Shown here: piece after piece, positions 545-17,913 of the stretch | Layout of the letters: every line of letters begins with the position of its first letter | Position numbering within the stretch: position 1 is the first letter of the stretch | Source of the DNA: Syntrophorhabdaceae bacterium | GTDB lineage: Bacteria > Desulfobacterota > Syntrophorhabdia > Syntrophorhabdales > Syntrophorhabdaceae | Length of the DNA: 32,641 nt | Assembly: GCA_017992765.1 (NCBI GenBank) | Contig: JAGOOA010000030.1 | Location: 1 to 32,641, forward strand | Direction: 5' to 3' | Position numbers and translations under genes: made by a program | Notes under the pieces: model-generated | What the model was told of the DNA's origin: nothing | The model's database searches: none | Seen by the model: the letters and a program-made list of their open reading frames with translations, nothing else

Positions 545-865
545 GGGGATTCAATCGACGAGTATCTGTAATCGTATATCTGGATTAAAAAGTGAAATAC
601 GAAATCCTAATATCGAAGCACTAAACAAATTCAAATGTTTAAAATTCGAAGCATAAATGTCATGCCTTTGTTCTGAACATTTAATATTTGATATTTTATC
701 CAGTGCATATAATTAGAGCATGACGTCGGGATATCCCGGAGCAAACCGTCGTGAGGCAAGGAAGCTTGGTCTTTTGCGAAGCAAAAGTTCCGAAGCCGAA
801 CGCGAGCGATTGGAGCCGCTGGAGCGGAATGAGCGTGTTTGCGGGGAAGAGTCCGACACCGATGC
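545..865. other. Gene-free gap filled by repeats
   Basis: The gap between the methyltransferase stop and the ABC transporter start holds two repeat elements and no credible gene. An AT-rich palindromic element occupies about 594-703 and a structured GC-richer element occupies 716-867. A small open frame read rightward from 720 lies entirely on the structured element and I do not accept it as a gene. Confidence 0.7.
594..703. repeat. AT-rich palindromic repeat, copy 1
   Basis: Contains GAAATCCTAA, CGAAGCACTAAACAAATTC and TGAACATTTAATATTTGATA blocks, shared with copies at about 17474-17546, 17819-17913 and 19181-19322. The arms are imperfectly complementary around a GC-richer centre containing CATGCC. 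It directly abuts the structured element at 716-867. The right arm looks truncated at about 700. Confidence 0.65.
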
Positions 866-867
866 TC
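716..867 (+). repeat. Structured dispersed element, copy A
   Basis: About 152 bp, roughly 90 percent identical by eye to the reverse complement of 17620-17773. The ends pair (GAGCAT with ATGCTC, then TCGG with CCGA further in). A second long-range pair is GCAAAC with GTTTGC. Internal hairpins are CTTTTGC-GAA-GCAAAAG and CCGC-TGGA-GCGG. A TATAAT box lies at 708-713, just before the 5' end on the plus strand. The element points against the surrounding genes. Its right edge overlaps the stop codon of the methyltransferase gene (866-868). It could be a MITE-like element or a repeated structured RNA; no transposase is present. Confidence 0.75.
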
Positions 868-1633
868 ATCCTTCCTTCTGGTTCTTTATAAATATCCTGA
901 GAAATTTTGAATCAAATTCGTGTTTTTTGGGGTCGTAGGGCTCAACCGGCATGCTGAAATTATGGTTCTCTCCATAGAAAAGCCTGTATTCAATAGTTGT
1001 AAAACCCAGATCCCGGAATATCTTTTCGTAGTTGTAGTTGAAGAGGCTCGATCGAACACTCGTAATGATCGCTATGTACCGTTTCGATACCCTTGCAACC
1101 TCGTTGAACAGGGCCTTGTCTTCGTACGGGATATGCTCAAAGACACCGATTGAGAACACGACATCGTAACGTTCATCGGGTACCTTCCTTATCGCGTCGA
1201 GGGCATTGCCTATGAAAAATGTTCCCTTTTCATAAAGGTCCGGGAAGTGCTCCTTCAGGACAATGTTTATCGAGGCATCGTTTATCTCTATCCCCGTGAG
1301 GTCCGTATAGCCATGCTTTAACAGGTAGTTCAGGTTCCTGCCGGCGTTGCACCCGATCTCCAGGAACGAGGCATTTTCTCCCAGCGCCTTAAGGATCCCT
1401 CCCTCGAACATAGCATAGGTACTGTTGTCTTCCTGGAGGTAATTCTCCGGCCCGTGTCTTTCACCCATCTCCCGTGAACGCCAGTACTCACGCTCATTCC
1501 TTTTCCATGGAGGACTGGCGCCGGCCAATCCTGAAACGGCGGACACGCCCGCCTCGATATTCTTGAAGGTATGGCTGTCCCGTATCTTCCTGTCAGGGTC
1601 TACAAACCTGTCGAATATACGTTTAAGCTTCAT
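866..1633 (-). CDS. Class I SAM-dependent methyltransferase
   Basis: 255 residues. A Rossmann-type SAM site is visible as FLEIGCNAGRNLNYLL near residues 90-105 (motif I), followed by an acidic GIEIND and then YDVVFSIGVFEHI (motif IV-like). The target is unknown; from its position it probably methylates a sugar or carrier-linked glycan in this locus. The ATG at 1633 has no strong ribosome site. The next gene upstream ends 57 bp away. The stop codon TGA (866-868) lies on the edge of repeat copy A, and the last two codons fall in sequence shared between the two repeat copies. The C-terminus may therefore have been set by the repeat insertion. GC content is higher than in the gene just upstream. 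Confidence 0.8.
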   Translation of the reverse strand: MKLKRIFDRFVDPDRKIRDSHTFKNIEAGVSAVSGLAGASPPWKRNEREYWRSREMGERHGPENYLQEDNSTYAMFEGGILKALGENASFLEIGCNAGRNLNYLLKHGYTDLTGIEINDASINIVLKEHFPDLYEKGTFFIGNALDAIRKVPDERYDVVFSIGVFEHIPYEDKALFNEVARVSKRYIAIITSVRSSLFNYNYEKIFRDLGFTTIEYRLFYGENHNFSMPVEPYDPKKHEFDSKFLRIFIKNQKEG

Positions 1634-5215: not shown

Positions 5216-6409
5216 TTAAAGATATTTTTTTTGCTCTTCAGCGGAAATATGGATAGGGCCATACGGAGAAGGCTCACCCCAAATATTATCTTTCCACCAC
5301 TGGTTATCTTCAATCCACCATATACGTGGATCGCGAAAACGGTCAGCAACTTGCCAAAACTCATCTTCTTTCATATTGACATAATTAAGCCAGTGATATA
5401 AATCTTGCGAAACCGCATGGTCATGTTTGCGAACCATCTTTATGCCTTCATCGCGCGTCATATAACCATTCCTTATATCTTTCGAAGCATGGTCTGAAGC
5501 CCTGCCATAACCAAACTTAATGAACTTCAGCAAATCATGCACACCGTTTTCGTATCTATCATCCAAGTTCGATATTCGTCTATACGTTCTCTCAAATGGA
5601 GTTCTTGATTCTCTCCACCCGTATTTCTCCTGAACTAATTTGGCATGTTTATTGGCGTCCCATTTAAAAAAGTTTCCTATATATATTCCTCGGACACCGA
5701 CATTCAATATTTCATCGTCAGGAGGATACTTAGCCCAAAGTAAATCTTTTTCAGTTAATTTGTCACTAGGGTCGTCGAGCATATCATACCACTCGTAACC
5801 ACGCAAACCATGCTCATGGCGTACCCTTGCACTAAATTCTACATAATCGTCTGGATCGTACATGCCGGAAATATCCCATGCAATTTCACCCCATATAATC
5901 AGAGGGATTTTAAATTTTGTTGCTATTTGAATGGGATAAGTAAAAATACCACAATGCGCATGCCAATTCATATCTCCCATTTTTCGAAAACAAAGCCTAT
6001 TAAGTTTTTTTAAAACCTCTACACTTGGCCCAAAAACAAGGTGATCAGCGTTGAATACATGCCTCATACGATCACGGTTATAATCACCCTCGGGTAAGTA
6101 ATTATTGCCATGGTAAGTAACAAGTAAAGGCTTCAGGCCATACTCCCCGGCAATAATATGAGTTTGGTAATAGCTGTCTTTTCCTCCGCTCACCGGAATT
6201 ATACAATCATAATCGGATATTCTGTTTTGAAGGGCCTCATTTATGATTTTTTCAAATCTTTTTTGACGTTCTTTCCAAAAGTTATAGTCAAGTTTATTAA
6301 ATTCTTCAAAGGTTCTGCAACTGCTGCAAACTCCTTCATCATCCAATGCCAAATTAACTCCTGCAGAAGGGTAAACACATCTTTTACAATAATTTATTTT
6401 TTTGTACAT
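5216..6409 (-). CDS. pseA: N-acetyl sugar amidotransferase (WbuX/WbpG/PseA type)
   Basis: 397 residues. It has a PP-loop ATP-pyrophosphatase motif SGGKDS at residues 74-79 and two Cys pairs at the N-terminus (C8/C11 and C28/C31) that could bind metal. WbpG/WbuX proteins use ATP and ammonia from a HisH/HisF-like pair to turn an acetamido group on a sugar into an acetamidino group. PseA does this for pseudaminic acid in Campylobacter. HisF and HisH paralogues sit immediately upstream (stop of hisF 11 bp away), and PseI comes just before them. Formation of an acetamidino nonulosonate is therefore the best reading. AGAGG about 8 bp before the ATG supports the start. The exact substrate is inferred from context. 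Confidence 0.88.
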   Translation of the reverse strand: MYKKINYCKRCVYPSAGVNLALDDEGVCSSCRTFEEFNKLDYNFWKERQKRFEKIINEALQNRISDYDCIIPVSGGKDSYYQTHIIAGEYGLKPLLVTYHGNNYLPEGDYNRDRMRHVFNADHLVFGPSVEVLKKLNRLCFRKMGDMNWHAHCGIFTYPIQIATKFKIPLIIWGEIAWDISGMYDPDDYVEFSARVRHEHGLRGYEWYDMLDDPSDKLTEKDLLWAKYPPDDEILNVGVRGIYIGNFFKWDANKHAKLVQEKYGWRESRTPFERTYRRISNLDDRYENGVHDLLKFIKFGYGRASDHASKDIRNGYMTRDEGIKMVRKHDHAVSQDLYHWLNYVNMKEDEFWQVADRFRDPRIWWIEDNQWWKDNIWGEPSPYGPIHISAEEQKKYL

Positions 6410-17473: not shown

Positions 17474-17546
17474 AATCGTATATCGTAGTTCGTATATCGT
17501 ATATCGAAATGAAATCCAAAATCATAATATCGAAATCCTAAACAAT
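17474..17546. repeat. AT-rich palindromic repeat, partial arm (copy 2 left)
   Basis: CGTATATCG-type short units followed by GAAATCCTAAACAA, which matches the start of copy 3 at about 19203. The similarity stops abruptly at 17546, as expected if the element was interrupted by the sequence carrying structured element B. Confidence 0.55.
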
Positions 17547-17619
17547 TACCCATGCCGCGCTTCGCGTGGGACCCTTAAATAACGAAAATGATGCATTCAG
17601 GACCGTACTCCATAAGGAT

Positions 17620-17773
17620 GAGCATGGCGTCGGAACATCCCCCGCAAACACGCTCATTCCGCTCCTGCGGCTACATTCGCTCGCGTTCGGCTTCGGAACT
17701 TTTGCCTTCCGGCAAAAGACCGAGCTTCCTTGCCTCACGACGGTTTGCTCCGGGATATCCCGATACCATGCTC
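17620..17773 (-). repeat. Structured dispersed element, copy B
   Basis: About 154 bp, inverted relative to copy A. The terminal repeats are perfect over 8 bp (GAGCATGG with CCATGCTC). The long-range GCAAAC/GTTTGC pair is kept. The main hairpin is CTTTTGCC-GGAA-GGCAAAAG, one base pair longer than in copy A on both arms, so stem pairing is preserved despite the length change. CCGC-AGGA-GCGG is also kept, with only the loop altered. A TATAAT (ATTATA at 17776-17781 on the plus strand) precedes the 5' end on the minus strand. This copy points in the direction of the genes, toward the class III aminotransferase. Confidence 0.75.
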
Positions 17774-17818
17774 TCATTATATGCCAGGATAGACTATTTT
17801 CTACGTAAATTAAAATGC

Positions 17819-17913
17819 TCGAAATTCAAAAACGGCGACATGCCTTTGTTTTGAACATTTGATGTTTGAATTTAGATATTGTTTAGTGCTTCGTGCTTAG
17901 GATTTCGATATTT
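17819..17913. repeat. AT-rich palindromic repeat, copy 2 right
   Basis: Contains GAAATTCAAAAACGGCGACA, TTTTGAACATTTGATGTTTG, GATATTGTTTAGTGCTTCG and AGGATTTCGATA. It shares the ATGCCTTTGTT centre with copy 1 and the arm blocks with copy 3. It abuts structured element B in the same relative arrangement as copy 1 abuts element A. Confidence 0.6.

Follow-up and report, generated by a model that had tools for sequence, protein, structure and literature searches.

Does the structured repeat found twice in this DNA represent a mobile element or a family of small RNAs? The window, that is, the whole analyzed stretch of 32,641 nucleotides, contains copy A (716-867, forward strand) and copy B (17620-17773, reverse strand). 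The initial annotation had described these as a two-copy feature and had offered two readings, either a mobile element that lacks a transposase or a small structured RNA that is repeated and driven by a promoter of its own.

The identity of about 90% that had been estimated for the two copies was reproduced by BLAST (89% over 183 bases, E 1e-60). Both copies were also found using covariance model R1, which was built from copies of the element family and gave no third match within the window. The terminal arms, the GCAAAC/GTTTGC pair and the CTTTTGC..GCAAAAG hairpin noted before were all confirmed in the sequence (Table 1). Furthermore, the hairpin of copy B had been described as one pair longer with the pairing kept, and this was found to apply family-wide. 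Since the extra apical pair varies between C-G, T-A and A-T across the family, the difference in hairpin length is real and compensated.

Table 1. Coordinates of the features of copies A and B and of their flanks in the window.
Feature	Position	Strand	Basis
Copy A, AT-rich left part of the composite repeat (limits approximate)	602-698	+	Consensus of 11 subfamily flanks
Copy A, degenerate left end tccagtgcatataattag	699-716	+	Copy alignment; counterpart of the intact end CCCRGATAWGTCATTAG
Copy A, TATAAT in the left end	708-713	+	Within 699-716
Copy A, structured body (outer stem and core)	713-870	+	Covariance model R1, 177.3 bits, E 9.5e-45
Copy A, outer stem, 5' arm	716-730	+	Pairs with the 3' arm; helices 1 and 2 covary
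Copy A, GCAAAC, 5' side of the core-closing long-range pair	741-746	+	Helix 4
Copy A, main hairpin CTTTTGC-GAA-GCAAAAG	771-787	+	Helix 6
Copy A, GTTTGC, 3' side of the core-closing long-range pair	837-842	+	Helix 4
Copy A, outer stem, 3' arm	852-867	+	Pairs with the 5' arm 716-730; fold and model match
Copy B, composite repeat arms	17526-17544, 17894-17912	.	19-nt inverted repeat, 95% complementary, 349 nt apart
Copy B, structured body	17617-17776	-	Covariance model R1, 173 bits, E 1.3e-43
Copy B, main hairpin CTTTTGCC-GGAA-GGCAAAAG, one pair longer than in A	17699-17718	-	Sequence; loop survey
Copy B, TATAAT in the left end	17776-17781	-	Sequence; not conserved in the family

The end of copy A lies in the stop codon of an ORF for a methyltransferase (866-1633, reverse strand). 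On the same strand, positions 5216 to 32499 of the window form a surface-polysaccharide biosynthesis region with genes for UDP-GlcNAc 2-epimerases, a DegT aminotransferase, a PglD-like transferase and glycosyltransferases. A nucleotidyltransferase with CBS and B12-dependent radical SAM proteins are also encoded there.

An alignment of the copies with their flanks revealed that the element is longer than the previously given extent of 716-867. The full ends are CCC(A/G)GATA(A/T)GTCATTAG on the left and TAATGGAAAATCTGGG on the right, and in most genera the copies have the outer ends CCCRGATAWGTCATTAG and TAATGGAAAATCTGGG, with terminal inverted repeats common to the copies and with target duplications. 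The end-to-end length ranges between 51 and 300 bp and is usually 185-190 bp; two copies in G009, with 51 and 55 bp, consist of little beyond the ends. A coding sequence is absent from the element, and there is no common reading frame because of indels of 1-4 nt in loops and joints.

The outer ends are flanked by AT-rich 5-bp duplications (e.g., TTAAA, TTAAG, ATTAT, TTTAT, CTAAA and ATTAG). These were exact for 21 of 40 elements and contained at most one mismatch for 32 of 40, whereas a mean of 4.1 exact duplications was obtained with shuffled partners and none of 20,000 shuffles reached 21. For the identification of empty sites, the joined flanks of ten copies were compared with sister genomes. 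For four insertions (L015, L028, L011 and L226), five uninterrupted loci could be found, three in G002 and one each in G004 and G022. At these loci the 5-bp target is single, the flanks are 90-95% identical and the match is contiguous across the junction. For example, genome G000 contains element L028, and the orthologous site in G002 reads AAAAACAGCTTAAAAATATG. Since orthologous sister loci are empty, the element has moved.

The ends, the 5-bp duplications and the empty sites identify the element as a MITE-like non-autonomous transposon, in agreement with the first of the two readings proposed initially. Of the defining properties of a MITE that were tested, all but a known autonomous partner were found, namely a size below 500 bp without coding sequence, terminal inverted repeats, target duplication and mobility. 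Some observations on the window copies point in the other direction: the outer ends of copies A and B are degenerate, a clear target duplication is absent, and their bodies have a GC content of 57-58%, whereas MITEs are typically AT-rich.

The element is not limited to two copies. In its own genome (2.4 Mb), 44 BLAST matches and 24 full-length model matches were detected, the latter with a canonical middle in 16 cases and a replaced middle in 8. Many copies were present in each genome of the window's genus and in 16 of 60 relatives, all of which belong to the same family. Outside this family, a model search of 395 genomes in the phylum added one copy, in G396. The titles of public records containing the core refer to Deltaproteobacteria, Syntrophus and Syntrophorhabdus MAGs, and no match to the core was obtained in viral contigs or in phage or plasmid records. 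The element is almost entirely restricted to one family of Desulfobacterota. The copy in G396 (L205), a member of another family, is single and diverged (123 bits) and is flanked by the end of a small ORF on one side and a rubrerythrin-like gene on the other; it possibly results from horizontal transfer. At loci L129-L145 (G018 and G004), N runs in the assemblies fall exactly inside the element core. Since the repeats break short-read assemblies of the host genomes at this place, short-read MAGs undercount the copies.

The search for a matching transposase covered the family's PF13701 and PF01609 loci. It revealed no autonomous element that shares the ends, which is a point against the MITE reading. 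Beyond the family, the end pattern matched only twice in 395 genomes (G231 and G289), and both matches were rejected as chance occurrences located inside genes. IS1380-type transposases (PF13701) were not found in the window's genus; they occur in other genera of the same family, where their elements have CCCAAATAATGCATT-like ends at TTAA. The CCCRRATNNNNCATTA form of the element's ends is similar, not identical, to that of three IS1380 elements of the family. For IS1247, a published member of the IS1380 family, the repeat measures 16 bp and the duplication 5 bp (PMC3281130). Based on the end sequence and the duplication length, an IS1380-type transposase appears to be the best candidate partner, although this is not proven. 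The likeness to the IS1380 family comprises similar CCC... ends, inverted repeats of about 16 bp and the 5-bp duplication (IS1247, PMC3281130); the difference is that IS1380 elements encode a transposase and the present element does not, and the search yielded no IS1380 copy whose ends are the same.

The PF01609 transposases were rejected as partners because their ends differ (TGTCCGGT, TGTCC-, CTAAAGTTTCGCA, CAGCAATTCTCGG etc.). One locus (L294, G027:C221, 741-2781) encodes a 604-aa DDE transposase (PF01609) between TTAACCCAACTTCATGA ends of weaker resemblance; this element is possibly a candidate, though a distant one, for an autonomous relative with related ends. The transposase fragment that follows the element at L180/L140 was found to be an unrelated IS remnant.

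The second reading was analyzed by way of the fold. As proposed with the initial annotation, copies were collected by similarity search and used for a covariance model and a covariation test; many copies were obtained, and the outer stem covaries above controls. In the fold alignment (A1, 52 copies), 45 pairs were determined using RNAalifold, and 96.7% of the cells are paired. Double changes were found in 16 pairs and 47 cells, compared to 7.5 and 13.7 in shuffles, none of 500 being as high, and at most 9 pairs and 23 cells in slid-partner controls. Nearly all of this covariation comes from the outer stem. Helix 4 (GCAAAC/GTTTGC) is paired in 99.4% of the cells with one compensated change, and helix 6, the main hairpin, in 98.8%. 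Since the inner core is almost invariant, the fold of the inner helices is weakly tested. The CCGC/GCGG hairpin, which had been described as an unchanged stem, was rejected on the alignment, because 26 of 51-52 aligned sequences do not form its outer pair and no double change occurs. A further hairpin, RAGGAAGCTY (columns 49-51/56-58), was likewise discarded: its variable pair occurs in all four combinations, and its covariation is not above shuffles.

In comparisons between genera, identity amounts to 90% in the core and 65% in the outer arms. The ends of a MITE are expected to be its best-conserved part. This unusual pattern is the reverse of that expected for a transposon kept by its ends alone, and it argues against the MITE reading. 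When stem changes were counted by parsimony on a tree, 64 led to G-U and 23 to A-C on the + strand (p about 1e-5), with the caveat that the structure-choosing program accepts G-U and the G-U count is inflated. For the outermost stem alone the counts, summed by hand, are about 33 and 14. The excess of G-U over A-C fits folding of the + strand as RNA or single-stranded DNA. The folding z-score of single sequences (about -5.85) is equal on both strands and does not separate them. In the comparison with Rfam 15, which had also been suggested, no match was found at gathering or permissive thresholds (E up to 10). The original remark that no described family was recognized holds for Rfam, and a search of the literature did not reveal any MITE known from Syntrophorhabdus.

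With regard to the promoter, a TATAAT had been noted just before the 5' end of each copy. The motif is present at both window copies, but it is not a conserved promoter. Among 105 unique copies, 14 contain it; these come exclusively from the window's genus, and the left end of this subfamily reads CCCRGNCATATAATGAG instead of CCCRGATAWGTCATTAG. TATAAT is thus a left-end variant of one subfamily, with no promoter above chance: the promoter scan revealed no sigma-70-like promoter in copy A and one site at chance level in copy B. A conserved promoter or terminator was not found in the element. Of the proposed structured RNA with its own promoter, the fold is supported by the outer-stem covariation; the promoter and the expression as RNA are not.

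The middle of the element is modular. Both core joints are present in 96 copies. The middle is canonical in 74 of these, contains extra sequence in 7, is replaced in 14 and is unassigned in 1. The extra sequence of the 7 copies is mostly an 80-nt hairpin-rich insert, and the remaining copy has the same kind of insert. The replacement middles are other palindromes of the GTGAAAGG, CCCTCTCCC and CATGAGC types. BOX elements of Streptococcus pneumoniae are modular as well, with constant end modules and a variable middle; in BOX one module is repeated, whereas in the present element unrelated palindromes take the place of the middle. The structured insert of about 80 nt (AGCCCACACCGTGGGCGAGAGGGGGTGGCTCC..GGAGGGGGCGACGTGAGCCCCGGTAAC) was observed in L016 (G000:C11), L072, L077, L079 and L093. 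It is located in the loop of helix 7, in L093 at another place in the element, and has no match in Rfam. Another palindromic repeat, CCCTCACCCTGACCCTCTCCCGCGAGGGGAGAGGG (query positions 1283-1330), occurs in dozens of copies in G000, G002, G004 and G005 and also substitutes for the middle in some elements.

Insertion sites are intergenic in 74 of 81 cases. The flanking genes are convergent in 23 cases and divergent in 4, and no clear orientation bias was found among tandem flanking genes. In the window's genus, many copies lie inside a larger AT-rich inverted repeat (AAATCCTAAGCACGAAGCACTAAACAA...), forming a composite of about 390 bp.

The element is very probably a MITE-type, non-autonomous DNA transposon; an IS1380-type transposase acting in trans is the candidate partner, and the core fold may be under selection. 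A DDE transposase supplied in trans would cut at the CCC...GGG ends and insert the element at TTWAA-like sites. The body would fold on the + strand of the element, either as RNA or as single-stranded DNA. Selection would keep the near-invariant core, which may serve as a stable RNA or may be bound by a protein of the host or of transposition. The middle hairpin is exchangeable, and other palindromic repeats can take its place. The element is classified as a new MITE family, which possibly carries a structured RNA. A reading in which the transposon carries a functional structured RNA or protein-binding nucleic-acid structure as its passenger and disperses it by transposition, with a core that is constrained beyond the ends, folds on one strand and tolerates exchange of its middle hairpin, is considered unlikely.

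A related explanation, a mobile structured RNA in which the transposon has a functional non-coding RNA as its passenger and the core is kept by selection on this RNA, is also unlikely. It would account for the higher conservation of the core relative to the outer arms, for covarying pairs above controls and for the G-U excess on the + strand, which is expected if this strand is the folded molecule, and small RNAs derived from MITEs are known from QMITE1/2 of Coxiella (PMC5896051). The lack of a conserved promoter or terminator and of an Rfam match even at E 10, the equal z-scores of both strands and the inflation of the G-U count by the program argue against it, as do the copies with a swapped middle and a different hairpin and an orientation that shows no preference suggesting co-transcription. 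A free-standing family of small RNA genes with its own sigma-70 promoter is highly improbable: the TATAAT upstream of both window copies, on which it is based, is the rare end variant described above, and target duplications and empty sites indicate transposition.

The pairing of the outer stem could instead be kept by mutation, i.e., by hairpin template switching or gene conversion between the arms, and not by selection on the fold. This may apply but is less than likely. Some copies have wholly different yet perfectly paired outer arms, such as GAACGTCTGCGTCGGG/CCCGACGCAGACGTTC in L014 and AAAACCGGTGCCGG/CCGGCACCGGTTTT in L010. However, template switching would bring back Watson-Crick pairs; neither an excess of G-U over A-C nor the near-invariance of unpaired core bases is predicted by it. 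As the element is palindromic, intergenic, high-copy and close to the 3' ends of genes, an origin as a REP/BIME-type palindrome, with a RAYT (Y1 single-strand transposase) as the spreading enzyme, was also considered. REPs are 20-40 nt in size and lack target duplications, whereas the element has about 185 bp and 5-bp duplications, which makes this origin extremely improbable.

The MITE-type transposon described here has counterparts in other bacteria. The Chunjie MITE of Geobacter uraniireducens is 178-235 bp in length, lacks a transposase and is present in dozens of intergenic copies (PMC10969869). It also resembles the present element in its inverted and direct repeats, its many partial copies and its host, which was formerly placed in the Deltaproteobacteria too (PMC10969869); this likeness is based on the published description. 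Correia/NEMIS of Neisseria and ERIC are short palindromic intergenic MITEs whose transcripts fold (PMC10969869) and which can carry promoters or RNase III sites; none was shown in the present element. QMITE1 and QMITE2 of Coxiella, with about 50 copies located in intergenic regions or 3' of genes, yield small RNAs (PMC5896051). They provide a precedent for an RNA function, but their direct repeats differ in length (2-3 and 7-11 nt compared to 5 bp).

With its empty sites and exact duplications, the element is a well-documented addition to the known MITE families and comes from a little-studied group of syntrophic anaerobes. It raises the question why the interior of a transposase-less element is better conserved than its ends. 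Should the core act as RNA or as a fold that binds protein, MITEs would be able to disperse functional RNA structures; otherwise, the pairing would be maintained solely by mutation, which is unusual.
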